From the NCBI RefSeq assembly GCF_000003605.2, contig NW_003155737.1, positions 709,246-742,886 of the forward strand: DNA of 33,641 nt. The letters are read 5' to 3'. This DNA is from Saccoglossus kowalevskii. Its lineage: Eukaryota > Hemichordata > Enteropneusta > Harrimaniidae. The notes under the pieces were generated by a model that saw nothing but the letters and a program-made list of their open reading frames with translations, did no database searches and was not told the origin of the DNA. Each line of letters starts with the position of its first letter. The first letter of the stretch is position 1. Below are positions 6,501-31,797 of this stretch, piece by piece. The translations under genes and the position numbers were made by a program.

Positions 6501-8340
6501 CCAATGATCAAAACATCGACGTTGTAAACAGATTTACATTTCAGCAATCACTTGCTAGAGGGCGCTATTCACAGGAGCGGAGTTTCTGGAACTTGAGAAA
6601 CTCCAAATCATATATGACATAATAAGTACAAACAGACAGATTACATACTAATCTGCATGTCAAGAGAAGTTTAATAAAAAATAACAAAATAAATTTCAAT
6701 AAAAAGAGGGGATGATGTTCTATGAATACTAGTATTTCATACTTGTCCGGGTGCCATAAAACACACTCAAATATAAAAATGGGGTCAGCCAAAAAATGAT
6801 TGTTGTAAACTTTTCTCTCACATTTACATGTGAACAAATTACCACAGAAAACATTATTGAATTAACTAATTGATTGATTGATTAATTGAGTGAGTTGTGA
6901 ATTTATTTTTATTTGTTTATCTGGGATAGGAAAAAATGATGGGGCTGTTATATGGTAGCATCGTTCTCCCTAATGGTCACGTTATATGCAGTCGGTTAGC
7001 GGACACAATCTTGTTTATTTTGGCAATGAATCGAACCGAATTTAATGAATTACACTGTACCATAAATACAACACCAAAATAAATACACCATATGACTGAA
7101 CACATTACATAGATTGAATTCAAATTACATTTCTAGTTTTGTAGAGATTATATTTAAAGGGCGGTAATCGTCGTGCCGCGTCCTTTTTGATATGGGACTC
7201 ATAGCGACGTATACAACGCGTGTAAAATACATTGTTTATTTACATGAAATTCAAACACGCGCTGCGCGACGACCACCGCGCTTTAATTGAAAATTGGTCA
7301 AAGTTAATTTAATTTCAACTAAATTTCATAATTAAAAAAAAATAATAATTCGAGTATTATTTCAGAGTTTATTGTTCTGACTTTCAGCCAGCGAGCCAGC
7401 CACTGAAATTAAGATTACAAAAAAAATATCCGGAACTGAATTGCCTAGCAAAAGTGTGTTTGCATCGCGTGTACCAAGTTAATCAATAGAGCGAATGTAA
7501 ACGAGTGTTTTTTTCTATTAATACGACTAAGACAACTCAGGTATTAGTATATATTTAGGCAGAATTTACCTATGTAATCTGAGTATAAGAGCGAGGTCTA
7601 TTCTGTTTACCTTCAAGTGAAAGTAATGTATGAATTGATTTGCGTAACCCCAGGGTCACTTTTGTACAACAAAAGAAACCTAAACAGCGTGTTTGTTTAA
7701 GGGCAAAACGTTTGGTTTCTGCCGCTACTCGTGATATCCATGCATGGCTTACCAAACGCTATTGCTGACCCAGCCATGGGCGCCGTGATTGTCGGAGCAA
7801 GGTCGTGCGTATATATTTGCGTACGTTCTCATGCAGATAATAACCACATATATGCACCGCGTATTTCCGGTCAAATGGTGAGAATGTAACTTAATTAACA
7901 CATACATTGGTCATTCAAGTTGGCTGGATCACGGTTACTTAAACCGTGGTTGGATTCAGTGACGACCAATGGCGAGCTTATCCCGGGGGCTTCCAAGTAG
8001 TTGGCTCACTGAGCACGGGGCGCGGAAAACCGAAAGAACACACCGACTAACTAACGAGCGAATCTATTGGACTAGTCCCAGCTAAACTCACTCTTGTCGA
8101 ACATTTAGATTGAACGTATGAATAGGTCGGAAACACAAAGGTGAGTTTTTCGCGGTAAACGTCACGGCTACACTAATGCGGCGACAATGAGTTCCCATGC
8201 GGTACACGGCGATACGCAGCCAGAAAACGAAATGCTAGTTAAAACAACTTGAAAGACAACAATTTTGACTTACCGACTATTAGAAATATGAAAATATCTA
8301 GAAACACGGTAAAAACCGGAACGTCTTTCCCTTCCGCCAT
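3387..8340 (-). CDS. PLPP-A: lipid phosphate phosphatase (PAP2 family), complete six-exon gene
   Basis: The six exons (8340-8274, 6299-6142, 5736-5429, 4792-4735, 4078-3902, 3530-3387) join in frame to 912 nt, or 303 residues, the usual length for animal PLPP1/2/3-type enzymes. The family dephosphorylates phosphatidate, lysophosphatidate and sphingosine-1-phosphate on the outer or lumenal membrane face. Motif 1 is KKMVGKLRP (residues 134-142), motif 2 is PSGH (182-185), and motif 3 is SRVYDFYHSLGD (230-241), with Arg231, His237 and Asp241 present. Six hydrophobic stretches surround them. An N-C-T sequon at 156 lies in the loop after motif 1, where family members are glycosylated. The start codon is preceded by an in-frame stop and has A at -3 and G at +4. 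The catalytic set is complete, so an active enzyme is inferred; the exact vertebrate orthologue (PLPP1, 2 or 3) is not resolved. Confidence 0.93.
3902..4078 (-). CDS. PLPP-A exon 5 (motif 3)
   Basis: 177 nt (59 codons, phase 0/0) behind acceptor TTTTTGTCTAG, with donor GTAAAT. It starts IYIEARLIWRG and contains SRVYDFYHSLGDVIGGAVLG: motif 3 with its phosphate-binding Arg, nucleophile His and supporting Asp, running into TM6. If the weak donor were skipped, translation would stop six codons later. Confidence 0.93.
4426..4509. repeat. Short inverted repeat in PLPP-A intron 4
   Basis: CAAAGAGATTTCCAC at the left and GTGGAAACAAATCTCTTGG at the right are complementary apart from a 4-base bulge and one mismatch, with a loop of about 50 bp. 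Confidence 0.5.
4735..4792 (-). CDS. PLPP-A exon 4 (motif 2, PSGH)
   Basis: 58-nt exon between acceptor TTTTCTCAG and donor GTAAGT. It encodes QSFPSGHASTSFYCLTFIV after a split Arg codon. PSGH is PAP2 motif 2; by family knowledge its His acts in leaving-group protonation. The exon is too short to stand out as an ORF and was found by motif and splice sites. Confidence 0.93.
5429..5736 (-). CDS. PLPP-A exon 3 (motif 1)
   Basis: 308 nt behind the acceptor TTTCTATATCAG, with donor GTAGGT, phase 0 in and phase 2 out. It encodes TM2-TM3, the phosphatase motif KKMVGKLRP and the loop CQPDFSKINCTDG with a glycosylation sequon. Length and phases equal those of PLPP-B exon 3, and the two align without gaps. 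Confidence 0.95.
6142..6299 (-). CDS. PLPP-A exon 2
   Basis: 158 nt behind the acceptor TATTTTGCAG and ending at GTAAGT. It completes TM1 and carries the conserved extracellular loop HRGFTCDDASIQHP, a typical PLPP signature before TM2. It enters in phase 1 and leaves in phase 0. The frame happens to stay open about 100 codons into the following intron. Confidence 0.9.
7154..7286 (-). mobile_element. MITE family copy 2 (133 bp), in PLPP-A intron 1
   Basis: Reverse orientation relative to the other two copies. It runs from TTAAAGGGCGGTAATCGTCG to GCGCGACGACCACCGCGCTT, then TAA. It is collinear over its whole length with the reverse complement of 23965-24097. Confidence 0.87.
8274..8340 (-). 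CDS. PLPP-A exon 1
   Basis: 67 nt with start codon at 8340-8338, encoding MAEGKDVPVFTVFLDIFIFL and the first part of TM1. It ends at a GTAAGT donor (8273-8268) in phase 1. An in-frame TAA lies shortly upstream, and the context AACATGG supports this start. Confidence 0.88.
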
Positions 8341-9280
8341 GTTGGGACAATTCTGGTTTTACGTATCCAAATGTCTACAATGCGTCTTCCTTGACTTGTG
8401 TATGGATTCAATCGCAGCGGAAGCCCAATGCGGGTAGCAATAATACACGCCCTCATTTGCATTACACTGCTCTGATCCTCAAACAAAATCAAAACAATAA
8501 AGACACGTTGCATGTTAAAAGGAGGCAGGAACAGATGCGTAAATGGACGATCATAGCTTACAAACATTTTTTTTTACAGAGATGCAGGTTCTCTTAGACA
8601 ATGTTTTGTGAAGTCTTCACGTTTCCATGCCAACACCAACTCTACGATGTTGATTTCAGCAAAGTTCTTCACAACCAAAAAGTGTTGAAAAGTCTTTAGC
8701 GACATCTACGTGACACCTCTGAATGCAAAGTGAGCATCGGGGAAAATAGGTATACAAAGAACACTCGTGTAACCATGGTTACGTACCTTCGCAAATAGAA
8801 TGCTTATTGTCATGTCACATGTTATAATATGACCATATATATCATATCTCATTAATTCACAAATGCCTAAATGTTTAATAATGTTTTATTTGCATACGAA
8901 CATACCATGTTTAGTATTGTTGTACGTTGATGAATACATTGAATAAGTTTGATAAAAACAATGACATTCTCTAATACGTATGTGCGCTGGTTTTTAGCAC
9001 GTATAAATACATTATTGCACATGCGTATTAGTGTTTATTTTTCATTTAAAGAATACTGTTGTGTGTCTTGCAAAAACATCATTTTAGTTTATGACAAATC
9101 ATATTTCGATTTAGTTCGCATCATGGAGTCTCGACGTCAATATTAAAACATACATTTTCGTACATATTGAGTCTTTTAGAAACCAATAAATAAACACATT
9201 TATTCTGTACGAGTTTTCATCGAAACGTTTTTTTTTTTTCAAACATCAACCGGAAAGTGCAATTACGTTTTACTGAATCT
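8341..9280. other. PLPP-A upstream region
   Basis: Expected to hold the 5' UTR and promoter of PLPP-A. Octamers lie at 8455 and 8888. No TATA box is evident at a suitable place. A T run precedes the minisatellite at about 9229. Confidence 0.6.
8455..8462 (-). promoter_or_regulatory. Octamer ATGCAAAT upstream of PLPP-A
   Basis: The POU-factor octamer lies 115 bp upstream of the PLPP-A start codon, reading ATGCAAAT on the coding strand. A second copy lies at 8888-8895. PLPP-B has the same octamer at a similar distance. Confidence 0.4.
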
Positions 9281-12200
9281 GGAATCCAATATAATTATGT
9301 AACGTGACACATACCAGTATTCTGTCTGGAATCCCATATAATTATGTAACGTGACACGTACCAGTATTCTGTCTAAAATCCCATATAATTATGTAACGTG
9401 ACACACACACCAGTATTCTGCATGGAATCCCATATAATTATGTAACGTGACACACACACAACAGTTATTTGTATGAAATCCCATATAATTATGTAACGTG
9501 ACACACACACATCAGTATTCTATATGGAATCCCATATCATTATGTAACATGACACACACACCACTATCCTGTATGGAATCCCACATATAATTATGTAACG
9601 TGGCACACACACCAGTAATCTGTATGGAATCCTATACAATTTTGTAACATGACACACATACCAGTGTTCTGTATCGAATCCCATATAATTATGTAACGTG
9701 ACATACACATGTATCCTGTCTGCAATCCCATATAATTATGTTACGTGACACACACTAGTATTCTGTATGGAACCCCATATAATTATGTAATGTGTCACAC
9801 GAAAGTATCACGTATGGAATCCCACATATAATTATGTAACGTGACACACAAAAGTATTGTGTATGGAATCTCATATAATTGTGTAACGTAACACACGAAA
9901 GTATCCTGCATGGAATCCCATATAATTATGTAACGTGGCACACACACCAGTATTCTGTCTGGAATCCCGTATAATTATGTAACGTGACACACGAAAGTAT
10001 CCTGTATGGAATCCCACATATAATTATGTAACGTGACACACAAAAATATTCTGTATGGAACTCCATATAATTATGTAATGTGACACATACCAGTATTCTG
10101 TCTGGAATTCCATGTAATTATGTAACGTGACACACAAAAGTATCTTATATGGAATCCCATATAATTATGTAACGTGACACACAAACGTATTCTGTATGGA
10201 ATCCCATATAATTATGTAACGTGACACACGAAACTATCCTGTATGGAATCCCACATATAATTATGTAACGTGACACACAAAAGTATTCTGTATGGAATCC
10301 CATATAATTATGTAAAGTGACACACACAAGTATCCTGTCTGGAATCCTATATAATTATGTAACGTGACACACGAAACTATCCTGTATGGAATCCCATATA
10401 ATTATGTAACGTCACACACACAAGTATCCTGTCTGGAATCCCATATAATTATGTGAAGTGACACACACAAGTATCCTGTATGGAATCCCACGTATAATTA
10501 TGTAACGTGACACACACTAGTATTCTGTACGGAATCCCATATAATTATGTAACGTGACACACACTAGTATTCTGTATGGAATCCCATATAATTATGTAAC
10601 GTGACACACACTAGTATCCTGTCTGGAATCCTATATAATTATGTAACGTGACACACACTAGTATTCTGTATGGAATCCTATATAATTATGTAACGTGACA
10701 CACACAAGTATTCTGTATGGAATCCCATATAATTATGTAACGTGACACACGAAAGTATCCTGTCTGGAATCCTATATAATTAAGTAACGTGACACATACC
10801 AATATTCTGTCTGGAATCCCATATAATTATGTAAAGTGACACACACAAGTATCCTGTCTGGAATCCCATATAATTAGGTAACGTGACACACAGTAGTATT
10901 CTGTATGGAATCCCATATAATTATGTAACGTGACACACAAAAGTATTCTGTATGGAATCCCATATAATTATGTAACGTGACACACAAAAGTATTCTGTAT
11001 GGAATCCTCTATAATTATGTAACGTGACACACACTAGTATTCTGTATGGAATCACATATAATTATGTAACGTGACACACACTAGTATCCTGTCTGGAATC
11101 CGATATAATTATGTAACGTGACACATACCAATATTCTGTCTGGAATCCCATATAATTATGTAAAGTGACACACACTAGTATCCTGTCTGGAATCCCATAT
11201 AATTATGTAACGTGACACACACTAGTATTCTGTATGGAATCCCACATATAATTATGTAACGTGACACACACAAGTATCCTGTCTGGAATCCCATATAATT
11301 ATGTCAAGTGACACACACAAGTATCCTGTCTGGAATCCCATATAATTATGTAACGTGACACACACAAGTATCCTGTCTGGAATCCCATATAATTATGTAA
11401 CGTGACACACATACCAGTGTCCTGTCTGGAATCCCATATAATTATCTAACGTTACACACGAAACTATCCTGTATGGAATCCCACATATAATTATGTAACG
11501 TGACACACAAAAGTATTCTGTATGGAATTCCATATAATTTTGTAACGTGATACATACAAGTATCCTGTCTGGAATCCCATATAATTATGTAACGTGACAC
11601 ACCAGTATTCTGTATGGAATCCCATAGAATTATGTATCGTCACACACACAAGTATCCTGTCGGGAATCCCATATAATTATGTAACGTGACACACAAAAGT
11701 ATTCTGTATGGAATTCCATATAATTTTGTAACGTGATACATACAAGTATCCTGTCTGGAATCCCATATAATTATGTAACGTGACACACCAGTATTCTGTA
11801 TGGAATCCCATATAATTATGTAACGTGACACACACAAGTATCCTGTCGGGAATCCCATATAATTATGTAACGTGACATACACAAGCATCTTATCTGGGAT
11901 CTCATATAATTATGTAAGGTGACACACACAAGAATCCTGTATAGAATCCCATATAATTATGTAAAGTGACATGCACAAGTATCCTGCATGGAATCCCATG
12001 TAATTATGTAACATGACACACACAAACATTCTTTCTAGAATCCCATATAATTATGTAACGTAACACATACCAGTATTCTGTATGGAATCCCATATAATTA
12101 TGTAATGTGACACACAAAAGTATTCTGTATGGAATTCCATATAATTTTGTAACGTGACCCACACAAGTATCCTGTCTGGAATCCCATATAATTATGTAAT

Positions 12201-13853
12201 GTGACACACACACCAGTACCCTGTATAGAATCCCATATAATTATGTAACGTGACACACACACCAGTATCCTGTATGGAATCCCATATAATTATGTAACGT
12301 GACACACACACCAGTACCCTGTATAGAATCCCATATAATTATGTAACGTGACACACACTAGTATCCTGTATGGAATCCCATATAATTATGTAACGTGACA
12401 CACACAAGTATCCTGTCTGGAATCCCATATAACTATGTAATGTGACATACACAAGTATCCTGTATAGAATCCCATATAATTATGTAACGTGACATACACA
12501 AGTATCCTGTATGGAATCCCATATAATTATGTAACATAACACACACAAACATTCTTTCTGGAATCCCATATAATTATGTAACGTAACACATACCAGGATT
12601 CTGTATGGAATCCCATATAATTATGTAACGTGACATACACAAGTATCCTGTATGGAATCCCATGCAACTATGTAACATGACACACGAAAATGTTCTGTAT
12701 GGAATCCCATATAATTATGTAACGTGACACACACAAGTATCCTGTCTGGAATCTCATATAACTATGTAATGTGACATGCACAAGTATCCTGTCTGGAATC
12801 CCATATAATTATATAACGTGACACACACAAGTATCCTGTATAGAATCCTATATAATTATGTTACGTGACATACACAAGTATCCTGTATGGAATCCCATAT
12901 AATTATGTAACGTGACACACACAAACTTTCTTTCTGGAATCCCATATAATTATGTAACGTAACATATATCAGTATTCTGTATGGAATCCCATATAATTAT
13001 GTAACGTGACACACACAAGTATCCTGTCTGTAATTCCATATAACTATGTAACGTGACATACACAAGTATCCTTATGGAATCCCATATAATTATGTAAAGT
13101 AACACACGTAAGTATCCTGTCTAAAACCCCATATAACTATGTAACGTGACATACACAAGTATCCTGTATGGAATCCCATATAATTATGTAACGTGACACA
13201 CACAAGTATTCTGTCTGGAATCCCATATAACTATGTAATGTGACATACACAAGTATCCTTATAGAATCCCATATAATTATATAACGTGACATACACAATT
13301 ATCCTGTATGGAATCCCATATATATATGTAACGTGACACGCACAAACATTCTTTCTGGAATCCCATATAATTATGTAACGTAACACATACCAGTATTCTG
13401 TATGGAATCCCATATAATTATGTAACGTGACATACACAAGTATCCTTATGGAATCCCATATAATTATGTAATGTGACACACACAAGTATCCTTATGGAAT
13501 CCCATATAACTATGTAACGTGACATACACAAGTATCCTGTATGGAGTTCCATATAATTATGTAACGTAACACACACAAACATTCTTTCTGGAATCCCATA
13601 TAATTATGTAACGTAACACATACCAGTATTCTGTATGGAATCCCATATAATTATGTAACGTGACACACACAAGTATCCTGTCTGGAATCCCATATAACTA
13701 TGTAACGTGACATACACAAGTATCCTTATGGAATCCCATATAATTATGTTACGTGACACACACACCAGTATCCTGTATGGAATCCCATATAACTATGTAA
13801 CGTGACATACACAAGTATCCTTATGGAATCCCATATTATTATGTAACGTGACA
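9281..13853. repeat. 47-bp minisatellite, about 97 units
   Basis: Units of about 44-52 bp follow the pattern GGAATCCCATATAATTATGT, then AACGTGACACACACAAGTAT, then CCTGTCT. They run head-to-tail with point differences and small indels from 9281 to 13853. The unit is not a multiple of three, so the minus-strand ORFs across it are frame-cycling artefacts. Every unit carries an ATAATTAT palindrome and most carry ACGTGAC. The array lies between PLPP-B (3' end) and PLPP-A (5' end). Confidence 0.97.
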
Positions 13854-15993
13854 AGTACTTTGACGCTCTCAGTATTATTCTCTATATCATGAGTCTGTTC
13901 ACTGTCAAATACATAATACGGATGGCAACATGGAATCCTGATATTAAACTCTTCAATTGTGTGACTTTTTCCGCTGGCCATGCTGTGGGATGTACGTTAC
14001 TACAAAAGGTGAAGTACGTCTACATGTGTGTACTTGTAGTAAATCGTAAAGGTGGTTCATTATTTAAATATATTTAAATCTCATCTGTTGCTTAATTACA
14101 CGACTTTATATACACTAAATGCCGTTTTTCATGTACGACTATTTTCAAATCTTATCAATTATACCATAAATGAAATGTGTATACACCTTTGTTCTCCCGA
14201 CTTCTCCTATGACTTTTACACGCCTTTGTTCTCATAAATTTTTCTTGAACTTGTATATAGGTGAAGTAACACCAATGAAGGCACAGTTACCATATTTTAC
14301 TGTTCCAAGAAAGAACCCCGAAAAGTGTTTTGGACAAGTATAGTTATATTCAATTTAAGAAGAGGACACGAGTCACTTTTTCATTAAGAATTTCTCGCGG
14401 AATTGTTGACAAAACACACTAATTGTTTTAAAAGTATTCTCCAAAAATATATCTACTACCTATACATAACACATTTCCGAACAGAAATTTGGCGTGTATC
14501 TAAACCAGAACGTTGCATAGCGGGGTTTTAGATTGTGCATTCATGTAAATATTTGTTAGACATACTACTTTGTGGAAGACTAAATCTTTTTTTAATCAAT
14601 TTTCAAATATCCTAAATTTCTTAAATTATGTTATTTTAACATTTTGCAATTGATATCGAAAATAGCGAAATACTTGGTTCTCGGGTAGAAACTGCAATTT
14701 GAACAAATCCGAAGATTTTGCGTGTTCATAAATATATCCAAAATATCTCAGGTATAATTATAAATAAACAGAATTTGGTAACGAGTAATGTTTAGAATAA
14801 TTTGTGTAACCATGGCGACTGGTACAGTCAATGGACACGTAAAATAACGCAAGTATTTTAAAACTAAAATATGATATTTATTATTCAAAACCCTTTCTTC
14901 AATACATATTGCATTTCTTATATGTATAGGCTCGCTACCAGTAATTGGTCATTAGTTGTGAAATACGATACATTGCGAGACTGTTTAAACACCTTCGAGA
15001 TTAACATAATTTACACAGATTGAAATAAAATGCACAAAATATTACACTTAAAATATCATAAAGTATACCTCATTTGTCCGCCAAACAATCGAATAGACCA
15101 AAGACGAGGAGAGTAAATCGTGACACGGTTTCTGATGTCGTTCCAAACCAAGCCAGTTAACACATGCACGGTCGAAGTAAAACCGTTTTGCGGAGCGGGG
15201 AGATGGGGTGAAAAACATTCAAACGACTAATACTAATATCATAAAGTGGGGAGTTTCAAATCAGTACCTTCTGTAAATGTGTAAAAATGTTCAAAATTGT
15301 CAATGTTGAGTAATGTAGCATTTAAAATGCTTCTCTCTCCGCGTATGTGTGTATGGGGGGGGGGGGGAGTTTGGTTTGTAACTAATACGCAATTACATTC
15401 AAAGAGAGAAATGAGTCAAAGGCATTCAATCACTACTTACTGCGGTTATACGACTTCATCAAAAACAATATTATCATATGTACATTTCTAAATAAAATAA
15501 GTACAAATATGTAGGTGCAAACAAATAATAATAAAATAGAATAAACTTTGTATAATACAGAGATCACGTTGCTCAAAAGTTATATACAAGATAAAAACAA
15601 ACAAAAAAGTGTCGTATACGACAATCGTGGTGACCTTTATCAAAAACATTGAGACACGCCTCGGGACGAATCTTTCAATATTCCATTCATAGAAGTGATT
15701 ATTTATAATATCGAGATATAAATAATTCTCGCTATTCTCGTTCCAGAAGAACGCATTTGAACTTAAACTTACAATAATAAAATAAACGTATAAGAATAAC
15801 ATACTTGCACAAAGTTACAATGACTGTCACGTGACGATAACACAGACAAATATGGAATACGTTAAGCCCTTCAATCACAAAGTACTAGTATATCGAATAT
15901 ATACACGAATTATTACAAAACATTTGAGTTGTCATGGAAATGGCGAGTTTCTTTATTATAAAGACCATTCGTATATATAAATGATGATGATGT
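13854..15993. other. Intergenic region between the minisatellite and PLPP-B
   Basis: AT-rich and without a supported gene. It contains a 13-base G run at 15355-15367 and, at its right end, the PLPP-B 3' UTR with AATAAA. Small ORFs show no family signature. Confidence 0.65.
15952..15957 (-). terminator. candidate poly(A) signal of PLPP-B
   Basis: AATAAA on the minus strand starts 37 nt after the PLPP-B stop codon. This would give a very short 3' UTR. It is the nearest canonical hexamer; whether it is used cannot be told from sequence. Confidence 0.4.
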
Positions 15994-16119
15994 TCACATC
16001 TTCTGCTCCACCCATGCCGAATTTCTGTTCGTCACTACGTAGTTATTCATTTCGACTTCGTCTTCGCGTTTCAGTCGGCGTTTGTGGCTACTGCCGAATA
16101 AACTTGTGAAATAAAATAC
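15994..16119 (-). CDS. PLPP-B exon 6 (C-terminal tail)
   Basis: 126 nt behind acceptor TTTTGTTGTAG, ending in TGA at 15996-15994. It encodes VFYFTSLFGSSHKRRLKRED, then VEMNNYVVTNR and the end WVEQKM. The basic stretch just after the membrane suggests a cytosolic tail. It aligns with PLPP-A exon 6. Confidence 0.9.
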   Translation of the reverse strand, partial: VFYFTSLFGSSHKRRLKREDEVEMNNYVVTNRNSAWVEQKM

Positions 16120-19100
16120 CTACAACAAAACATAAACAAGTTTTATTGATTAAATTACAATATATACCGAATATAGTTGTTCATAGAATAAGCCTCATGT
16201 AAGTTATGTGGCTATATGTTTGGTAACGAGTAAAACGAAACCGAATGATTTCAAAATGGCGCTGTTTACTACATTTCACCCTCCCCATTCTATCGGCACG
16301 TTTTGCCACGAAAGCCCTGGTACGATATGTAGTAGCTTGGTGAAAAAATAAGGGACAAAGCCAGACTACCAGCTGAATTTAGTACATGGAAATATGTTGG
16401 AATATTGCCTGAACAAAAAATAACCTGGGGTTGAAATTCGTTTTGGCGTTTATATATCCCGCAATTCATAATAACGCGTACACGGAAATAATAACGCACG
16501 CAATATATATGTAAGGATATCGACTTAACAAAATTATTAGTCGCCGTGTGTATTCTAGATAATTAATCTCATTCATTCATCTGGCTTTAATATGTTTTTA
16601 AAATGATCGTCCCGGCCCCTCACATTCAAGTTAGTTCACATCCTCGCCCTCAGCACAGACACGCCCATATTAATAGAACATCCCATTGCTACGTAAAATT
16701 GTAGAATGTAGGAACTTACCGTCATCACGGCAATCCCGCCGCCCAGAACAGCACCAGCGATAGCATCGCTGAGAAAATGAGCATTTTGGTATACCCCCAA
16801 CAGGGACATAAAGCACGCCCCCAAGAGACAGGCGGCTTGTATAAATGGTTTCATCAGCCCGACTCCTCTCCACAACCAGCGCGCTTCCAAGTAGAGCTAC
16901 AGAGAGAGAAAAGAGTAGCATGTTGGCATATCACACGATTCGAATGACCCCCAAACCACACTGAAACTAGCTTCACCACACAAGGATTACTTGTTCAATG
17001 ACGGATATGAAAGAGGTTAACGGCATGTTCGGGGTTTTGGTAAAAGTCCAAGGCCCATATGGCATCCTCCAGTCTTTTGATGAATACAGTACAGTTCGAC
17101 TTTATTGCACGACAACATACTACACTTCAAAACTGCCTTTACTGGGCTTGTTATATGTATTATGTATGTTATATTTAACAATTGGTACTTGAACTTGAAC
17201 TTGCCTTTGTCAAGAATAGTAACATTATCATCACCTTTGACTGTGGTAAATGAAGATTATAGAAAGGTTCCTTTCACATCGACATGGGCATTGAACACAA
17301 TAAAAATTACAACAATAGAGCTAAACAAAATAACTGTCGCGGTGAAATTCTTGTAAACAGCACACATTCCGCGCGGAAAAAAAACAGATACAAAACCCCA
17401 TAATACCCGGGCTAGAAATCTTTGCACCCGCCACATGCTAAAATACACCCGGGGAAGATAGCGCGTTTCACTGAAAACACTGCACTAACGACTGAACAAT
17501 GCTGTTCAATAAATATTCACAAAAAAATTCAAAAAATAAATACAGGACAACAGTTAAGCTGCTACCTGAGACGTGCCAACATAACATAACATTCCACCAT
17601 GGTATGCCAGAAATTTCAGCTGATATTAATGCTAACTGGGCATATTTACTGGACAATCAGGCAGTTGCAGACGGAAGTTCTCCCATAATGAACGTGCGTC
17701 AGAGCGCAACTTTCTCTTCACTTTTTAAAAGACCCACACCAGGAACTCCTTTCTTTCTTTTGATCAGACATGTGTGGAGCAGTAATTCTGCGGACTGGTC
17801 TAAGGAGAAGATTGATGAGGGATTGCGACTAGTGGCCCGTAATTACACACGCATCATCATATCAGGTGCGCCGTGTACATCCGGGTCGTGTATTCTGATC
17901 TGATCATCGGCCCATTGCTTATCTGTACAAAGAAAGCTACATAACACCACACAAGCAGCCAGGATGGGGTTTGTATCATTCGTAGCATTCACCAAAAACC
18001 GACCCTGATGAAATCGACTATAAAAACTTGCAACTTGCCAAGTTCGTGATATAACATTGTAAATACTCGTATTCGGCGATTTTGAGTAAAACTCCCTGGC
18101 GCTACGTGTCAATACGACTTATTTCCGTAAATCTGTCATACTCGTAAGTTTACTACCAGTAAATTATTTAACTCGAACAGTAAAGACATCTCTATTAATT
18201 ATGGCACATTTTAATACGTACCACAAAATATACTGCAACACAGAATACGATGGAAGCGTCGTATGATGGGAAAGATTCTCTGAAAAAAGTAAATTGAGAG
18301 TTAATTACTAAACCGTCACAAATCAGTTGAAGACGTGCAAATTCGATAGAATAGTTTCCTCAAATGTGCCAGATAAACTTTTTTGTTATTAACTTGGAGG
18401 TACCTTTAGCGCATTCGATTTTTAATGTTGTTGAAAACATTGTTAACGCGAAAGGAAAATATGGGAGCGGTCTGTTACACAAACCGTTCTAGGGAGTGTA
18501 TGTTTTTCTATGGGTTTCTATGGACACTGGAAGTCAATGCGATGCGCAACACTATCTTTTTGGATAAATTCAGCAAAAAGAAAATAGTTCTAAATCTTAG
18601 TATTCCGAAGAATATCAATATAAAGCGTCATATCACCCGCTCTAATTTTATTGCTTATTTATTTTATGACGCTGTCCATGTTGATGACCCCACTAATCAA
18701 GAATCATAGAGGAAGAGAGAGGGTGAATTTAAAATCCATCATGCTTGACAAGAACGACAGTACCGATTCAGACGATGAGAATTTTGAAGAGTCAGATTTG
18801 GTGACGACTGCAACCAGAATGTCAGTGATGTTCACTTAATAAATTATCATTTTGCTGAAATACCATAGAAACGATTTGGCAATGCATGTAATTCTCTTTT
18901 CTATGTTTTAAATTGTAAATTTAGTAATAAATGAAACTAGTCAGAATTCGTTAAATCTGGTACTTATGTAATGTATTAGCGTAAACAATAATACGCAATA
19001 ATACGTACACGTGGTTGGTACAATAAACTATAATACGTACACGTGGTTGGTACATAAGTACAGTAATGCCAGTAAGATTCAGTATTTGAATAATACTTTA

Positions 19101-22100
19101 TCTTTTCACTCAGCATAGCAATGTTTGCATAATATACGTGCATTTCCACAACTTTATCAAAAGAACACATTTTTGCATCACACAAAATTATATCACATAA
19201 TGTTTACTACAATTCCTTGACATATTTCGAAAAAACGAAGATAAACGAAAACACATATATTTTGTAACATAGCTTGCATGGTGTATTACACGGAAAAAAG
19301 AATTATCAGTTTGCGCATCAATGTCATAGCATTTGTTTTGTTATGTCTTCGACACAAAATGTCCAACTTAAAATCAACACCCGCTTTCAAATTGGCAAAA
19401 CAAATTTGTTCCGGAAAATGCCCTCGCCTTGTTGACACCTCCAACTTTGTTCTTATACATGCAGATTTGTTTATTTTAATAAGCTCATTAAACAGGAGTA
19501 TCTTGCCTGAAACAAATACATGAACTATGTCTGTATATTTTCAATATCATCATCAGAATAACACCAAAAATGTGTGATGTGGTGTCGACTTAAACTCGGT
19601 TTGTTTAAATGGTTTTGATAGATTAAACAGATTAAGTAAAAAACAATTCTGCGCGGGCAGTACTTCAGTCTGAAGTGTCCATATTTCCGATAAATTGTAT
19701 CCGCCCGAAAACTCTATTATGCCTGAGCATGGAATTTAGACCACGTGGAATGTTTGATTTAGAAAATGAAATTATGAATTTTGAATTCAGCGTCTCAAAA
19801 TTGACCAGAAAAAGTTTTCCCTCCTACATGACATATCGCACTTAGTTTTGTAATAATTTGCTGAAATCGAGGCTAGAACGCCTGGATATCATGTATTTTA
19901 GAATCAGCACCACTATCAGAAAATATCTATTGCTGATAAGGTATAAATAATGTGAGACGGGAAGCTACGGTTGAAGCTACCCTTTTCGTATAACCTAGAC
20001 TACTAGAACTCCGAGCAACCAACCTATGAGACGCACAATACATAGAAATAGTACTCACTTAGCCTCTTCGATCAGGTCGTCATTACCCGTGCATACACTA
20101 TCATCAACCCAACCTTCCGAACAGTCATACAAGGTGGTATTAGCTTGACAAATATCCAGGAAATTGGGACGGAGACGACCAACCATCTTTTTTCCAAGTA
20201 TCACGAATATGTAAGTCAAGTTGACGGCGAATATATGAAAACCGATCGTCCTCCAGATGTTGACGAGTATGAGGTGTACGTAACAACCACACGGGATGCA
20301 TGCTGGGGTGTCCCGGTCTTTATTTCTCGTGTAACAACAATAGAACAGGATCTCTCCTACCAAATACTGCAACGATGACATAAAATATTGTTAGCCTTTA
20401 TTATTTATCAGAACGCAGTAAATATCAACTAGTCATAGAAACGAGTCAATTCTCTTATCCGCAAACCGAATATTTAAGGAAATTCAGTATTATGAAATAT
20501 GCCTTTAAAACTAACGTACGTAGTATTAAAGTGAATTGACTTGGCAGAATGTTCACTCAATTACAAAGTATCTATATTGATGTGTGTTGAACGTCACTAT
20601 GTACATAACGGCGATCATATTTATGAATATTAATTACGATAATTACGATCAGCTATTGTGGGTGCTTGCGTATAGTCGGCAACAGGTGGTGACGTCATAA
20701 ATTACACGGAGATCGCGTGAGTGTTTAATGGCGATTAAAAGAGAAGCCATGAAGTTGCATCCATGTTTGTATTATATACAGAATGCCACCCACTGATTGT
20801 TGCGGTCGCCATGACAATATTATAAAATCCCTTGGTTTGGCGACAAACGGAATGCTGAATTATTGAGCGATTGTAGCAACTGAAGCCTGCTCTGAAACCT
20901 GAGTCGTTTAATCCTCAAATTAGACTTTCATTGTTGTAATCACTCAAGTATATTAGCGTGCACTTTTGCTTTTGAATTCGATTTAAGAACTTTAGTGGAT
21001 AAGATTTTTCATGGAATGTGGGGGCCAATGCGAAGTGTTCTACACATCAAACAAAGTTGTAATAAAACTTTAATAAATTGACTATTTTGACCTGAGCATA
21101 GTTAAAAAACAAACAAAAAAAACCAAAAAACGTCGACTATATCAGTCCCCTTCACTGTATACGCTGTGTACATACCCAGTCCGAACAGACTTAATATTTG
21201 TTATTCAGTCATCGTAGTGGTGAGAGTAAAATAATATTTTGAGCACACAAACTGATGACGTATGGTATAATGTGCTGGTAATTAATGTATAACGCATACG
21301 CAGAGTGAAAAGTACAATATGACGTCATCCCGGGAGGTCACGTTCATATTTTAGTCTAATTAACATTGTTTTACATGAATATAAATCAGAAATGCTTATA
21401 TATGGACGTGAGTGACAATAGTTCACGATTAATTACTGTCTTTTAGGTACAAACACAATGCCCAATCACAAGACATTGTCACAAAATGCGACACTGTCGA
21501 AACATGTCCAGACTTTACCTTGTTTTAGAACCTCGCTAACGAGGCCATGACAACTAACAGCACGCAGGAGTACCCGGATGTATCTACCTGAGTATGCGAC
21601 AGATGTTGTTAAGTAGATCGTTACTGAATCCAACGTTTTAATAAACAATAAATACTCACAAATATAGCAATAGCATATGCCCCAACTAGAACGTAAAGCT
21701 TTGGTATAATTGACTCTGTGTATGGGTATTGAATGTCGGTATCGTCACACCGGAAGCCCGTATCACGCACTGGTAGGAACTCCAATACATCGTAGAAAAA
21801 AGGGAACAGGACAATAGCCTCTGAAACGAAACGTAAACAATCCGGTGAATACATTTTCCCGCCAAAAAATAAAGTACTAGTATATAATTTGAACACATTT
21901 TGACTCTTACACAGTCTAGTAAAAAACTAAAAGGTGGCTTCACTATTATCTTTTCTTACCGTTAAGCATATTTATCATACATATATTATTGGTTGTAGTT
22001 GACACAATGGCGATCAACAAATTACATTGTATGACTCGACAGGTATGGAAACATTCTTTGTACAGCTTTTTAGTTTTATTGAATCACAGAAAACTTGAAT

Positions 22101-23185
22101 AATAGCCTGAGATTGACTTATTTATTTGACAACTATACCAACGAAACGATAAATACAACAAACAACAAACTAGCACCATCATACTGTAGTTATACGAGAA
22201 ACGGGGCGGTAGAACGAGATTCTAGTGGAGGCAATGTGTGGCATCAGTTTTGCTTTTAAACTCTCGTGACAGCAAGGCGTAACTATATATCTTACAATGA
22301 CAATGGTCACATACATCCACTACAATCATATTGTGTGCAGTACAGAATTGGTTTTCATCACTGGTATTCTCGTCATAATATTTGTGCTCTGTGACTTGTG
22401 GCAAAGATGTACATGTTGTTATAAGATAAATGATGCGTTTGATTATTCCAATAATAATGTTTAGAAAGAACCCATTGATGCAAATTTTTCAGGTCGAATG
22501 CCGTCCGCAAAAACAGTTTGGTACGAGTTTTTGAAATAAGGTAAAAGGTGCCCACTGGCGCAAAAATAGAGTGACCTCCTTAAGGTACTGAAGCAATGGC
22601 AATGTAGTGCCCACTGGCGCAAAAATAGTGTGACCCCTCGCCCCTAATACATATCAATAGAGACTATTGTGTACTTGGTGATCATTCTCACGCTCTTGCT
22701 TGGTTTCCTTAAATACACTGAAGAATTTATTTATGTCATCCACACTTTGCTTCAGGTGAACTTTTAGAAGCATGTTAAGTGAGTCACAAATATGTTTCTT
22801 TGCAGGCCAGTTGTTTAACAGACAGTGACGTGAGTGCATTGACCCCACCCTGTCATGGCCGTACCACAAGATCCCACAACACTTTCAGCACCGTGTATAC
22901 CATGACACATAGCATGCATATACACATAACACGTCGTTGAACAAGATCGTTACCACGATAAATAACGTTATATTGAACAAAATAAGCTCTCGAGAAGGAA
23001 AGAAAGTTATACCCATGGAAGCGAATTTGATCCCTGTCATTGTAGTTATACGTCCAACACATGTATATGTCAACGGTAGACCCTACCCGGATCAAAAGGC
23101 AGACCACCGGTAAAAGGGAAAACATTCTAGCCAGCAACATGATATTATTAAACTATTCATGATTAACAGTGGTTGAAAATGACCC

Positions 23186-23220
<35 letters not shown>

Positions 23221-23441
23221 TAAAAGTTTATAATAGTTATATAGCACCCTAACTGTGGCAAACATGACACAGCAAGGTCGCCTATATGTGTTAAGAATGT
23301 CTATACCGTAGACAGATTTGGCATGCACAACATCAGGATGTTCCCTAAAGAAACTCGTTTGATGAGAATGAAAGAGTACTCACCAACTCCAAGAAATATC
23401 GCGATATCTATAAACACGTTAAAACATCTGATATCCTGCAT
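15994..23441 (-). CDS. PLPP-B: PAP2-family paralogue with degenerate active site, likely pseudophosphatase
   Basis: The six exons (23441-23384, 21820-21660, 20366-20059, 18279-18222, 16896-16720, 16119-15994) join in frame to 888 nt, or 295 residues. The intron positions and phases (1,0,2,0,0) are those of PLPP-A, so this is a tandem duplicate. Motif 1 is intact (KKMVGRLRP, residues 132-140). Motif 2 reads PSYD (180-183) where PSGH is expected. Motif 3 reads LGVYQNAHFLSD (228-239), so Ser and the phosphate-binding Arg are gone while His235 and Asp239 remain. A sequon N-T-T lies at 149. In the family, loss of the motif 2 His or motif 3 Arg abolishes or severely reduces catalysis; vertebrate PLPPR proteins are a precedent for inactive members. 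The open frame, conserved splice sites and retained tail argue against a dead pseudogene. The function is unknown; inferred roles are lipid binding or partnering with PLPP-A. Confidence 0.92.
16720..16896 (-). CDS. PLPP-B exon 5 (motif 3 lacks Ser-Arg)
   Basis: 177 nt between a pyrimidine-rich acceptor (CTCTCTCTGTAG) and donor GTAAGT, phase 0/0. It encodes LYLEARWLWRGVG, then LLGVYQNAHFLSDAIAGAVL. Where PLPP-A has SLSRVYDFYHSLGD, this exon has SLLGVYQNAHFLSD: the catalytic Arg is Gly, while His and Asp are kept. Confidence 0.93.
17499..17903 (+). other. Unassigned 134-codon ORF in PLPP-B intron 4
   Basis: Open plus-strand frame inside the intron between PLPP-B exons 5 and 4. The middle part (SLFKRPTPGTPFFLLIRHVW and onward) has protein-like composition, but I recognise no domain. 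There is no supporting promoter or splice signal. It could be a fragment of an old retroelement or chance. It is not called a gene. Confidence 0.15.
18222..18279 (-). CDS. PLPP-B exon 4 (motif 2 degenerate: PSYD)
   Basis: 58 nt between acceptor CTTTTTTCAG and donor GTACGT, phase 2 to 0, the same length and phase as PLPP-A exon 4. It encodes ESFPSYDASIVFCVAVYFV, so the Gly-His of PSGH is replaced by Tyr-Asp. The alignment around it (SFPS..AS) is unambiguous, so the substitution is not a misplaced exon. Confidence 0.88.
18998..19053. repeat. Two tandem copies of a 32-bp unit, each with CACGTG
   Basis: ATAATACGTACACGTGGTTG followed by GTACA occurs twice, 32 bp apart, in PLPP-B intron 3. Each copy holds an E-box palindrome CACGTG (19008-19013 and 19040-19045). 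Confidence 0.8.
20059..20366 (-). CDS. PLPP-B exon 3 (motif 1 intact)
   Basis: 308 nt behind acceptor CATCGTTGCAG, donor GTGAGT, phase 0 to 2. It carries TM2-TM3, KKMVGRLRPNFLDICQ, and the loop ANTTLYDCSEG with a sequon. Length and phase equal those of PLPP-A exon 3. Confidence 0.94.
20690..20697. promoter_or_regulatory. CRE palindrome in PLPP-B intron 2
   Basis: Perfect TGACGTCA. A second copy lies at 21320-21327 in the same intron. Confidence 0.3.
21320..21327. promoter_or_regulatory. CRE palindrome in PLPP-B intron 2
   Basis: Perfect TGACGTCA, about 330 bp downstream of exon 2. Confidence 0.3.
21660..21820 (-). CDS. PLPP-B exon 2
   Basis: 161 nt between acceptor TTCGTTTCAG and donor GTGAGT, phase 1 to 0. 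It encodes the end of TM1 and the loop TGFRCDDTDIQYPY followed by KLYVLVGAYAIAIF of TM2. It is one codon longer than PLPP-A exon 2. Confidence 0.92.
22549..22632. repeat. Direct duplication of about 28 bp in PLPP-B intron 1
   Basis: GTGCCCACTGGCGCAAAAAT followed by AG(A/T)GTGACC occurs twice, about 56 bp apart. A partial match (CACTGGCGCA) occurs at about 5182 in PLPP-A intron 3. Confidence 0.7.
23186..23223. repeat. (TA)n microsatellite
   Basis: TA dinucleotide run with one TG interruption, in PLPP-B intron 1. Confidence 0.95.
23384..23441 (-). CDS. PLPP-B exon 1
   Basis: 58 nt, start codon at 23441-23439, encoding MQDIRCFNVFIDIAIFLGV and ending at GTGAGT in phase 1, as in PLPP-A. An in-frame TGA lies upstream and the start has A at -3. 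The shared pattern FxVFxDIxIFL aligns it with PLPP-A exon 1. Confidence 0.85.
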
Positions 23442-26986: not shown

Positions 26987-29900
26987 CTGAAAAAAATGAA
27001 ATGAATAGTTGTTAATTACTCGGCTGTGTTGCATACTACATTGTGGATGTTACACATTACATCAATCAACTCACTATGGCTATTTGCTGATTTTTGGATT
27101 GATGAATTTTTTTTATATAAAATAAATAGATAAATAAAAAACAAAACTGAGTAATACTGTAAAATCTATATTAGAAGCCGCGGCTTCTATTAAAATGGTA
27201 CAATGCAACAGAGGAGATGTGGCTTCTATTAGAGCATCTACACATATGAGAAATGGTGAATTTTTGGTTCTCAATTATTCAAAAAAAAATGGGTGCGACT
27301 TCTATTAAGGATGCAGCGTATTTGAAAAAAGAATAATCCCTGGTTTGAAGTGTAAAATGTTGCCTGTAGCAGAAACTGATTCTGAAATCAGTAAAGGCTT
27401 GGAAAATGGCTACAATCGTTGCTTTTAACATTATATCGGCTGTGTCTTTGATGAACAAATTATTGACCAAGTAAATCACCAAACAAAACAAGTTGCCTGC
27501 TGCTAAAATTAATACTGTCAAGCTGAATCAATTCCTGCTGTTAGCACTGACCACAGTCCAGTCCAGTCCAGTCCAGTCCAGTCCAGTCACATACTATGGT
27601 GTTCAATGTCTGTATAAATTACAACATGTTATCTTACCTCAATATCACCTGCTATAACACCGGATGAAAGTTTTGATGAAGATGACAGAACTGCACCAAA
27701 TCTTTCTTGTCTTTTCCTTTTCTGTTCTACTTCATTGAGCTGTAGTGAACACAAAATCTGGACTTTAATAAATCCTATGAATTATGGGATACTGGTCATA
27801 GTATCAAGTCAATCATTGAAAAGACATCACAGAACTTACATAGTTCCTATTGTTAAACCACATTTTCATTTACATATGCCTACTCAGAAGACCTGCATCC
27901 CTGCTACAGCTCTCACTCATTTGGGTCCTAACTATGTTGTCTTCACATGTTTTGCCATCATACACTACTATAGGTATACTGTATATTTTGTCACACACCA
28001 CCTGAGGTAAATGGGTTGCTTGTCCTAGTCGTCTTTTCAAATGACAAAAATAAAAAAAAAAATCTGTAAAGCTTACTTTAACTGCTGTCTTTGAAACATT
28101 GACACCAAACCTTTCAGCTCTTTTCTTTATTTTGTCTAAATCAGCACCCTGTTAATATAAAAGTAATATTATAAATCTAGAAGCAAAGCTCAACACAGAG
28201 AGAACCAGGTAAGTGTACACAGCATAAGCATTTGCTTTTATAGGTGTGTGGGAGTTCTCAAACATTGTAAGATGGGTTACATTGCAGCTATCACACACAC
28301 ATACTCAAGAATCCATGACTATGACAATTCAGACTTACTGATACTATCGTTGACCCTGATTTTATTGCTGAGGTGGTGGTAGTAGTTGACTTTGACACTG
28401 GTGATGTGGTACCAAATCTGAAAAGATACAAGACTATGAAATAACTGAAAACTTGCCAAATTAATGATGACATGCAGATACCTTGGACAGTTGTTTCTTA
28501 TTTGATATCTTAGGAAACAAGAATGCAAGATCATTAAGACTCATTAAAACAAAAAGATACACCTTTGCATTATGTTTAAACATCAATAGGGTAATGGATA
28601 TCCAAGCGTATGATAATTAGTCAATGACAAGTACACTGCATCTCTTAACATTGTATCTCACCTCTTTGTAAAAAACATACGCTACACTACACACCTAGAT
28701 GTGATACTATAGTATTAATAGCCACAATTTTTACAAAGAAGAAACTTAGCAAAAGACACAGTGACTTGTAGTTTTAAAGATTCCAATGAAATGTACACTG
28801 CTAACCAGAATACCTAAGTACTCACCGTGCAGCTCTGGCAGCTTTCCTAGCATCTTCAGACTGGGCTCCAAATCTTTGTGCACGAATAGCAATTCTCTGT
28901 AGAGGTCAAGGTGAAAGTAAAGTAAAGAACACAATGATGATTATTCATTCAAAACCATAAACACAGCATAACATATTCCCACCTACATGTACAGTATTTG
29001 CTTTATTAGAACCTTATTCTTAATAACAATATTTTTTTTTTTTTTTTTACTGAAGTACATTTATGATAGTTAAAACTAGTATGTTTTTTAGACAAAATTG
29101 TGCACTGATTAACATACATGTGTCAACAAGGCAGCGAGTACACTAATTTGGTGTAGAAAACATTGCAGCCACTGATATACACGTGTCAACAAGGTATTGA
29201 GTACACTAATTTGGTGTAGAAAACATTGCAGCCACTGATATACACGTGTCAACAAGGTATTGAGTACACGAATTTGGTGAAGAAAACATTGCAGCCACTG
29301 ATATACACGTGTCAACAAGGTATTGAGTACACTAATTTGGTGTAGAAAACATTGCAGCCACTGATATACATGTGTCAACAAGGTATTGAGTACACTAATT
29401 TGGTGAAGAAAACATTGCAGCCACTGATATACACGTGTCAACAAGGTATTGAGTACACTAATTTGGTGAAGAAAACATTGCAGCCACTGATATACATGTG
29501 TCAACAAGGTATTGAGTACACTAATTTGGTGAAGAAAACATTGCAGCCACTGATATACATGTGTCAACAAGGTATTGAGTACACTAATTTGGTGAAGAAA
29601 ACATTGCAGCCACTGATATACATGTGTCAACAAGGTATTGAGTACACTAATTTGGTGAAGAAAACATTGCAGCCACTGATATACATGTGTCAACAAGGTA
29701 TTGAGTACACTAATTTGGTGTAGAAAACATTGCTGCGTAAAACTTACTTCTTGCTCTGTAGTGGTTTTCAAGGTTGGTGAAATGACAGGTTTAATAGTTG
29801 GTGACGTGGGGGATTTTGGTGGTGCATCTATTGATAATCTTATTAATTTGGGTTTTTCTTTTGTTTCTGTTGACACTATCTCTGTATTTTCTGTTTTTTT

Positions 29901-31797
29901 TGGTTCAGCTGCTATCACCACTTCTTCCTTTTTCACTATCTCTTCTATTTCATCATCTTCTATGTCATCGTCGTCATCCTCCACCTCCACTACATCGTCA
30001 TCCTGCCAGATATAACAATTTAGAGAGCATAGTATGCAAATGAAGATAGAATACACAAACATTTATTCAATTTAATCGTATTTCACAGATCAATACATTT
30101 AATGCATTTTTAGCCCTGATTTGGAAAACTCCATCAACAATACTGCACCAGAAGTGTCACAATGACCGACAGTATTTCAAGCCATTATCCAGGTCTAGAC
30201 TTTAGACAGAGCTCTTTCTAAGGTCTATGTGTATTTCTGAAGATGTATAAATCGCTATTAATTCCAATACAATTAAGTGTCTTGCTGTGATCAGTATAAA
30301 TCATCAACACCATAACTTTCAGATTTGATTATTGGCCAAGTTACTCAAAATTGACTGGGATTTCAATTAAATTTTACAAACAAAACAACCAGAGCCCTAA
30401 ATCACTGTTTTTCTTGCGACTGCTACCAATTTAAAAAGTTGATAGCATGACAATACTGTTGGGTAGTCCATAAGTGGTTTGGTAATTGAATGCAGTCAAT
30501 TTTGAATACATGAAAACAACCAACTCATTTTTTGTAGGACAATTTTAATCAATCACAAATTTCTAGTAATCTACTTGGGTTACCGGTATTAATTTTGAAA
30601 AAAATGTTAGCCCTAGCACAAGAATTGATAATCTTTGTGCTTCAGGCAACTGTAATAAATGCATACATTCATGATTCAATATAAGAAATTAAGAATTCAA
30701 TTGATCACACACACCTCTAAGACTTCATCGTCCTCTTCTGTACTACCTGTTCAAATAAAATTGCAAAAATTTGCCTGAAATTACTCAGTACATGTGTTTT
30801 TGTTGAATGACAGAAGAAGTAAAACAACTCAACCATCTATACACATCAATTGTCTGAACTTACAAATCAGCTCTCAAAGTTTAATATTTTCCCCAGTGTC
30901 CATTGGCAACCAATTAGTAACCAATTAGTAATGGTAGTAACAAAACTGCTGGTCACCAGAATTAATTCTTTTACAAATACATAAGAAATTTAGATATTTC
31001 AGATGCGATTTCCTTAATTAGCAGCCTAGATATATTTTTTCTGATCGCCATTGATTAAAATTTAATATCCATGGTGATCAAAATAATCGCAAATCAGAAA
31101 ATCATTACTTTTGGAATAAATTCAGATGAACAAGGTCTAACGGTAATTGTCAGTAACATGGGCTAAAATTGTGCCCTCAGCGGTGAACTTAAAACGTATA
31201 GACATGTGAATTCTATAGCGATGGATGGAAAAATTATTTAAGGTTTGACATTTTTGGCAAGCAATATTACGGATGATGGTATTAGGTTAGCAGCTTAGGT
31301 GTTGTTAAGGCAGTTTATTTACTCTTTCACAGTGAAAATGTTACAGGAAAGCAACACAAATACAGAGAGTAAGAACACAATAGCAATGTAACCCATAAAT
31401 GAAAGCTATAGATTCCACCACACTATTGAACAAAAAATGCGCCTTATACACACTTCAATTAGAGATGTGCTTTTAATAGAGATGTGCTTCGAATAGAGAT
31501 GTGCTTCTAATAGAGCAAATGCAGCAACTATGTTTTACTTGGGTATTGTTATCCCCTCAGTAAAACATTCAAAACTTTACAAAGAGAAGCAATCCAAAAT
31601 GACTACAATGTTTAGAATGTTTTGGGGTTATTATGTATCCAAATTATTCAAAAGGAGTTTGATAGATTACTTTATGGATTACTCAGAATAATTACAAGTT
31701 TAATTTGAATGATGTTTTGCAGTGATGAGTCCATTTCAGAGACGAATTTCATAGTTTTTAGTCTTACCTTCATCAAGTATACTGATACCTGCATCAC
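26942..31797 (-). CDS. SARNP: SARNP/CIP29/THO1-like mRNA-export factor, eight 3' exons (5' end outside window)
   Basis: Eight exons (31797-31768, 30746-30715, 30002-29748, 28896-28826, 28417-28339, 28148-28077, 27739-27638, 26986-26942) join in frame to 227 residues and a TAG stop. The order is a short acidic run, a long Asp/Glu-rich exon, then five copies of an R-F-G motif (IRAQRFGA, RAARFG, KRAERFG, KRQERFG, KRAERFG). The C-terminus AKKQKRAERFGTNS matches the end of SARNP. Family knowledge: SARNP has an N-terminal SAP domain, works with the helicase DDX39B/UAP56 and TREX in nuclear mRNP assembly and export, and the RFG motifs contact the helicase. No SAP-domain exon is visible up to 33641, so the N-terminus lies to the right. 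The gene is in CpG-poor DNA, as expected for a methylated housekeeping gene. Confidence 0.9.
27165..27310. repeat. Degenerate repeat with recurrent CTTCTATTA
   Basis: CTTCTATTA occurs three times (GCGGCTTCTATTAAAA, GTGGCTTCTATTAGAG, GCGACTTCTATTAAGG), with a mirrored TTAGAAGCCGC before the first. Related text recurs at 31445-31515. This is an old dispersed repeat. Confidence 0.45.
27555..27588. repeat. (AGTCC)n microsatellite
   Basis: Nearly seven perfect copies of AGTCC, in the last large SARNP intron. Confidence 0.95.
27638..27739 (-). CDS. SARNP: SARNP-like exon with fourth RFG motif
   Basis: 102 nt, phase 0/0, acceptor CACTACAG and donor GTAAGA. It begins LNEVEQKRKRQERFGAVLSS and ends GVIAGDIE, corresponding to the K.RKERFG block of the family. 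Confidence 0.92.
28077..28148 (-). CDS. SARNP: SARNP-like exon with third RFG motif
   Basis: 72 nt, phase 0/0, acceptor TATATTAACAG and donor GTAAGC. It encodes GADLDKIKKRAERFGVNVSK and TAVK, matching the LDK(L/I)K.RA.RFG..VS block of SARNP. Confidence 0.93.
28339..28417 (-). CDS. SARNP: SARNP-like exon, Ser/Thr-rich
   Basis: 79 nt behind acceptor TATCTTTTCAG, donor GTAAGT, phase 2 to 0. It completes the second motif (AAR|FG) and encodes a low-complexity linker TTSPVSKSTTTTTSAIKSG. Confidence 0.88.
28826..28896 (-). CDS. SARNP: SARNP-like exon with first RFG motif
   Basis: 71 nt, phase 0 in and 2 out, donor GTGAGT. It encodes RIAIRAQRFGAQSEDARKAA followed by RAA, strongly resembling the conserved centre of SARNP (RAERF....KKAARAARFG). 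Confidence 0.92.
29120..29732. repeat. 63-bp minisatellite, ten units, in a SARNP intron
   Basis: Ten near-identical 63-bp units start at TGTCAACAAGG and repeat every 63 bp (29120, 29183, 29246 and so on). Differences are few: GTGTAG or GTGAAG, and ACACG or ACATG. The array ends about 15 bp from the donor site of the acidic SARNP exon. Because 63 is 21 codons, frames stay open on both strands; I do not call these genes. Confidence 0.96.
29748..30002 (-). CDS. SARNP: SARNP-like acidic exon
   Basis: 255 nt (85 codons, phase 0/0) between acceptor ATATCTGGCAG and donor GTAAGT. It encodes DDDVVEVEDDDDDIEDDEIE, then a Lys/Glu mix and a Ser/Pro/Thr stretch (PPKSPTSPTIKP). Past the donor the frame stays open through the 63-bp minisatellite. 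Confidence 0.88.
30715..30746 (-). CDS. SARNP: SARNP-like 32-nt microexon
   Basis: Bounded by acceptor TTATTTGAACAG and donor GTGTGT. It encodes STEEDDEVLE after a split Gly codon and leaves in phase 0, matching the next exon. The acidic content continues into that exon. The donor is weaker than average, so the exon could be skipped; at 32 nt, skipping would shift the frame. Confidence 0.72.
31445..31517. repeat. Short tandem GAGATGTGCTTNNAATA units
   Basis: AGAGATGTGCTT followed by TTAATAG, CGAATAG or CTAATAG repeats three times at about 21-bp spacing, in a SARNP intron. It resembles the CTTCTATTA repeat at 27165-27310. Confidence 0.55.
31768..31797 (-). CDS. SARNP: SARNP-like 30-nt exon
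   Basis: Bounded by acceptor TGCTTCTACAG and donor GTAAGA. It encodes DAGISILDE with split codons on both sides (phase 1 in, phase 1 out). It is the most upstream exon seen and fits the linker following the SAP domain. Confidence 0.7.

Follow-up and report, generated by a model that had tools for sequence, protein, structure and literature searches.

A 33,641-nucleotide stretch of the genome of the hemichordate Saccoglossus kowalevskii (the window; C4504:709246-742886 in the 572-Mb assembly) carries two genes of the lipid phosphate phosphatase (PLPP) type, PLPP-A and PLPP-B. PLPP-B, a six-exon gene on the minus strand at 15994-23441 that was rebuilt from the raw sequence, most likely encodes a pseudophosphatase that has been maintained and that perhaps serves the active PLPPs as a non-catalytic partner, a reading to which, taken as a whole, we give about an even chance.

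The exons of PLPP-B, all on the minus strand, lie at 23384-23441 (58 nucleotides (nt), with the start codon and ending in phase 1), 21660-21820 (161 nt, with a GFRCDD loop), 20059-20366 (308 nt, with motif 1 and the sequon N149), 18222-18279 (58 nt, with a degenerate motif 2), 16720-16896 (177 nt, with a degenerate motif 3) and 15994-16119 (126 nt including the stop, with a tail block, VEMNNYVVTNR, similar to that of PLPP-A). All five introns have GT...AG borders, the exon start phases are 0/1/0/2/0/0, and the spliced length of 888 nt translates into 295 residues with a single, terminal stop. An A occupies position -3 of the ATG, and an AATAAA polyadenylation-like signal is found at 15952-15957 (minus strand), 37 nt past the stop. 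The spliced product matches the Pfam PAP2 family (PF01569) at 65.4 bits, with a cut-off of 27.2, and its best PDB matches are the solved chains of PLPP3, 1 and 2 (E 8e-33 to 2.3e-25); these scores exclude a chance origin of the signal. No stop, frameshift or broken splice site marks the gene as a pseudogene in any of its six exons or five introns, and six open exons with usable splice sites and compatible phases, as given in a preliminary description of this DNA, were all recovered. PLPP-B is very probably a real protein-coding gene. A processed pseudogene is ruled out by the five introns. The peaks of a simple hydropathy profile would be compatible with six membrane segments, along with one further hydrophobic stretch ahead of the third transmembrane segment. 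Intron 4 holds, on the opposite strand, an open frame of 135 residues (17496-17903, plus strand), for which Pfam gives no match within an E limit of 0.1.

The catalytic columns were read from an alignment of PLPP-A and PLPP-B to human PLPP1, 2 and 3, whose sequences came from the PDB matches and are partial, and are given in PLPP1 residue numbering. All ten catalytic residues are retained in PLPP-A. PLPP-B retains K120, R127, P128, S169, H223 and D227, and replaces G170 with Y, H171 with D, S216 with L and R217 with G. Motif 1 of active PLPPs, K......RP, is present as KKMVGRLRP (20192-20166). The SGH of motif 2 is absent, with SYD in its place within PSYD (18269-18258), and motif 3, [S/T]R.....H...D, is not matched by the LG.....H...D of PLPP-B, found in LGVYQNAHFLSD (16800-16765), where His and Asp are kept. 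An intact motif 1 beside degenerate motifs 2 and 3 agrees with what the preliminary description had reported. The codons concerned are TAC GAC in PLPP-B against GGC CAT in PLPP-A for motif 2, and TTG GGG against TCT AGG for motif 3; counted by hand from these codons, the four residue changes need at least five substitutions. A regular-expression search of both strands of the PLPP-B gene for SGH or SR.....H...D revealed no alternative exon with a PAP2 context; of its three xSGH matches in the gene, two fall in intron 1 and one in intron 2, and all lack such a context.

Roles as nucleophile, in bond breaking and in coordination have been assigned to the catalytic residues of PLPPs in a review, in which LPP1 carrying R217K is described as catalytically inactive (PMC7564803). 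With Gly at the R217 position and Asp substituted for the His of motif 2, PLPP-B should have no ordinary PLPP phosphatase activity, a prediction that we hold with high confidence. It has lost the leaving-group (bond-breaking) His and a single Arg that binds phosphate, rather than the site in its entirety. The earlier wording, according to which the catalytic residues had been lost, holds for the motif 2 His and the motif 3 Arg but is too strong, since the nucleophile of motif 3, His235 in PLPP-B, is retained along with Asp239.

The sister gene, PLPP-A (3387-8340), encodes 303 residues and is transcribed in the same direction. The two genes share the same phases and have equal lengths of exons 3, 4 and 5 (308, 58 and 177 nt), their products are identical at 129 of 294 aligned residues (43.9%), and a C-terminal block, VEM.NYVV.NR, is common to both. 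The proposal that PLPP-B is a tandem paralogue of PLPP-A with an intact gene structure is borne out by these features. Identity to PLPP1-3 is 28-30% for PLPP-B and 35-40% for PLPP-A. Protein searches of the assembly with both products (E up to 1) found at least four PLPP-type genes, A, B, D and E. A Pfam PAP2 search gave four matches, three of them to A, B and D and the fourth to a PAP2 protein of a different kind, encoded on contig C1346. PLPP-D (C4504, ~183.3-186.1 kb, plus strand), ~525 kb from the A/B pair, has the intact motifs KGMLVSPRP, PSGH and TR.....H...D. Gene E (contig C1812, ~700-2300, plus strand) reads QLMIGRLTP at motif 1, PNTY (FPNTYA) at motif 2 and SEVAINQCFWSD / LSEVAINQCFWSD at motif 3, the last without the Arg and without the nucleophilic His; it is presumably PLPPR-like, a label that we take from its motif pattern only.

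A maximum-likelihood tree was built from exons 3-5 of seven sequences, with no named PLPPR among them. PLPP-A and PLPP-B group together (89 in the Shimodaira-Hasegawa-like approximate likelihood ratio test (SH-aLRT) and 88 in the ultrafast bootstrap (UFBoot)), and gene E falls outside. PLPP-B is thus probably an old tandem sister of PLPP-A and not a local PLPPR. Because it groups with A and not with the separate PLPPR-like gene E, its inactivation appears to be independent of the loss in PLPPRs, as the preliminary description had suggested, within a tree that contains no named PLPPR. A scan of IMG/VR with PLPP-B gave no orthologue, in collections that are viral, phage, plasmid and prokaryotic and hence uninformative on animals.

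The age of the pair limits what a direct comparison of the two genes can say about selection. Only 8 of 55 fourfold sites are identical between PLPP-A and PLPP-B, no more than chance (0.25 expected). Pairwise nonsynonymous divergence (dN) is 0.487 by the Nei-Gojobori method (NG86), with synonymous divergence (dS) undefined, and maximum likelihood gives a dN of 0.55 and a dS of 3.4, at saturation. Since synonymous sites are saturated, the pairwise dN/dS is unreadable. Neutral drift of the PLPP-B frame was therefore simulated, with 4000 replicates per point and an intact frame defined by the absence of any in-frame stop and of any splice-site, start or stop-codon loss. At a neutral distance d of 0.05, the frame stays intact with a probability of 0.053 if only substitutions occur, and of 0.0025 if 0.1 indels per substitution are added. 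At the same distance the probability of at least five changes is 0.019 across the ten motif codons (30 sites) and 0.0004 across the four codons that changed (12 sites), a choice of sites made post hoc. At d=0.08, with substitutions only, the frame survives with a probability of 0.0115 and at least five changes in the 30 sites arise with a probability of 0.096. Multiplied together, the two probabilities come to ~0.001 or less at each distance with a computed value for both. An intact frame thus permits too little neutral drift for at least five catalytic-codon substitutions, and the catalytic losses most likely predate any neutral phase. In the tree, the branch for PLPP-B is 1.02 substitutions per site against 0.37 for PLPP-A (~2.8-fold), and this excess of 0.65 would take a neutral d of ~0.3 and ~10 stop events, of which zero are seen. 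Third-position guanine-plus-cytosine (GC) content is 0.50 in PLPP-B, above the 0.37 of its introns (p=3e-6). Selection probably preserved the coding frame once the catalytic losses had occurred, and selective maintenance is in this way supported indirectly, by the simulation set against the substitutions at the catalytic codons.

As a maintained pseudophosphatase, PLPP-B would yield a PLPP-family membrane protein unable to run the normal phosphatase reaction. Loss of the motif 2 His would remove phosphate-bond breaking, and loss of the motif 3 Arg would remove substrate coordination. The protein would act without catalysis, most plausibly by joining mixed oligomers with the active PLPP-A or PLPP-D, and in these oligomers would change the amount, location or activity of the active PLPPs. 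This partner-subunit mechanism is put forward tentatively, with somewhat less than even confidence. Homo- and hetero-dimers are reported for LPPs (PMC11471602), and the PDB entries of PLPP1, 2 and 3 contain four chains each, as judged from chain and entry counts. In PLPPR5 a Glu stands naturally at the motif 2 His position, and the change E195H restored prominent plasma-membrane expression; motif 2 and motif 3 mutants of PLPPR1 were stuck in intracellular membranes (PMC9520309). Asp183 of PLPP-B occupies the position of the PLPPR5 Glu, a partial convergence that may bear on trafficking.

Several observations weigh against PLPP-B as a maintained partner of active PLPPs. Fly Wunen reportedly formed no heterodimers with Wunen2 or with human LPP1 or LPP3, mutations in the catalytic domain abolished association, and activity did not need dimerization (PMC11471602). 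PLPP-B has also changed faster than PLPP-A, with 41 unique changes against 19 when PLPP1 is the outgroup (p=0.0045), 43 against 20 with PLPP3 (p=0.0038), 31 against 9 with the in-genome PLPP-D (p=0.0005) and, less clearly, 33 against 20 with PLPP2 (p=0.074). Losses are frequent outside the motifs as well: PLPP-B keeps 36 and has lost 21 of the 57 columns that are invariant in PLPP-A and PLPP1-3, with no preferential loss of catalytic columns among them (3 of 9, against 18 of 48 others; Fisher p=1.0). The S216 column stands outside the 57 because PLPP2 has Thr there. Given these losses and the lack of preference for catalytic columns, general relaxation appears to be part of the picture, and PLPP-B is by its sequence a generally loosened, changed protein, not one altered at the active site alone. 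The rates and the scattered losses would both suit a very young unprocessed pseudogene, in which selection has recently stopped and a stop or frameshift has yet to arrive. However, the drift compatible with an intact frame is too small for the catalytic-codon substitutions, and the difference in rate disappears with gene E as the outgroup (16 changes in B, 18 in A; p=0.73), so that this explanation is left with a small chance. An error of sequencing or assembly at motifs 2 and 3 is hardly credible. It would have to account for at least five substitutions, spread over two exons that ~1.5 kb separate, in a frame that stays open throughout, even if no second copy or allele of PLPP-B turned up in the assembly searches for comparison.

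The remaining explanations differ from a non-catalytic partner in what the altered pocket would do. PLPP-B might act as a decoy or sensor that uses motif 1 and the pocket for the lipid tail to bind, but not hydrolyse, lysophospholipids such as lysophosphatidic acid (LPA) or sphingosine 1-phosphate (S1P). The motif 1 K, R and P and the motif 2 S are retained, and direct LPA binding by the inactive PLPPRs is judged plausible in a review (PMC9520309). However, the change from R to G deletes a phosphate ligand and that from H to D (D183) puts an acidic residue into the pocket, which weakens this model and leaves it unlikely. The preliminary suggestion that an intact motif 1 would suit binding without turnover is likewise one of the weaker ones: the motif is kept, but a pocket that loses Arg and His and gains Asp would argue against tight binding of a lipid phosphate. 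The same Asp183, at the position of the motif 2 His, could instead serve as a general acid beside the nucleophilic pair of H235 and D239, both of which are kept, in an altered enzyme with another substrate. There is little more than a slight chance of this, given that PLPP-B has Gly where even the R217K form of LPP1 is described as inactive (PMC7564803) and that Tyr in place of the motif 2 Gly would probably crowd the loop. The chance is slighter still that PLPP-B is simply the local PLPPR orthologue, with no independent loss. The general pattern of degenerate motifs is alike, and in PLPPR5 an acidic residue, E195, stands where active PLPPs have the His of motif 2 (PMC9520309), but PLPP-B groups with PLPP-A, shares with it 44% identity, the gene structure and the tail, and coexists with a separate gene, E, whose motifs are PLPPR-like by pattern.

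PLPP-A was rebuilt in the same manner, with all exons on the minus strand: exon 1 at 8274-8340, exon 2 at 6142-6299, exon 3 at 5429-5736 (motif 1, KKMVGKLRP), exon 4 at 4735-4792 (intact motif 2, PSGH), exon 5 at 3902-4078 (intact motif 3, SRVYDFYHSLGD) and exon 6 with the stop at 3387-3530. About 1 kb downstream of it, at 2339-2399 on the minus strand, lies an orphan exon that would be the first of a third PLPP copy (MARDIRIYNVVIDIVIFVIT), with a start codon and a phase-1 donor in phase. A profile of the first exons of A and B finds it with E=9.1e-6 in 113.6 kb, where the next best match has 0.16. In these 113.6 kb around the window, the PLPP exons found were only those of A and B and the one orphan exon 1, and exons 2-6 to accompany the orphan were not found within 50 kb downstream. 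The array may therefore once have had a third copy, or have formed one only in part. A 47-bp minisatellite of ~97 copies (86% matches) at 9280-13853 takes up the greater part of the interval that separates PLPP-A from PLPP-B. Elsewhere in the window, an open frame of 317 residues (29109-30062, minus strand) includes an acidic stretch followed by ~10 copies of a 63-bp repeat, with a sub-threshold Pfam match only, and two arrays of a 52-bp tandem repeat, with related units, occupy 31836-32642 and 32813-32999. The assembly also contains a mitochondrial contig (C4830, 17,037 bp) with repeats at both ends, on which COX1 was found by Pfam. Opposite COX1 and ND6, its other strand carries genes that we take to be, in order, COX2-ATP8-ATP6-COX3-ND3-ND4L-ND4-ND5-CytB, an arrangement that suggests a deuterostome other than a vertebrate. 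A mollusc haemocyanin domain, looked for as a taxonomic marker, gave no match, a result without weight since no positive control responded.

Among known proteins, PLPP1/2/3 (LPP1-3; Wunen in the fly) share with PLPP-B the PAP2 domain, motif 1, the nucleophilic His and the Asp of motif 3, a sequon between motifs 1 and 2 and the cysteines of loop III, but possess the motif 2 Gly-His and the motif 3 Ser/Thr-Arg that are replaced in PLPP-B. PLPP7 (NET39) belongs to a different branch of the superfamily and, unlike PLPP-B, is not known to be a tandem duplicate of the PLPP1-3 type. It resembles PLPP-B as a member of the PLPP family that is described as inactive by loss of critical catalytic residues (PMC7564803). 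The plasticity-related genes, PLPPR1-5, are likewise PLPP-derived with catalytically degenerate motifs; LPA phosphatase activity was at first reported for PLPPR4 but later work did not reproduce it, and PLPPR1 had no such activity (PMC9520309). PLPP-B is set apart from them by its tandem sister PLPP-A, by its intact motif 1 residues and by the presence of the PLPPR-like gene E in the same genome; moreover, PLPPR1, 3 and 4 retain the motif 2 His (PMC9520309), which PLPP-B does not. Outside the family, the trypanosome prozyme and an inactive deoxyhypusine synthase are dead paralogues beside active ones and work via hetero-oligomers (PMC5201418, PMC3663545). These are unrelated soluble enzymes, and the complexes reported there are only proposed for PLPP-B.

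Inactive relatives of PLPPs (PLPPR1-5, PLPP7) are already established, and PLPP-B is apparently an independent further example. Among the matches listed from open-access papers, which fall well short of all that is published, none dealt with an inactive tandem PLPP resembling the A/B pair. Pseudoenzymes are common, accounting for 8% of the genes for enzyme-like proteins in the fly (PMC12869072), and for this reason PLPP-B is of use to specialists rather than a great surprise. Dead lipid phosphate phosphatases can persist, as the vertebrate PLPPRs and PLPP7 do, with a mode of action that is unsettled. A tandem pair with an active-looking sister, together with a partial convergence on PLPPR5 in the acidic residue that replaces the motif 2 His, offers a natural comparison, and features retained in both dead lineages would be candidates for a non-catalytic function.

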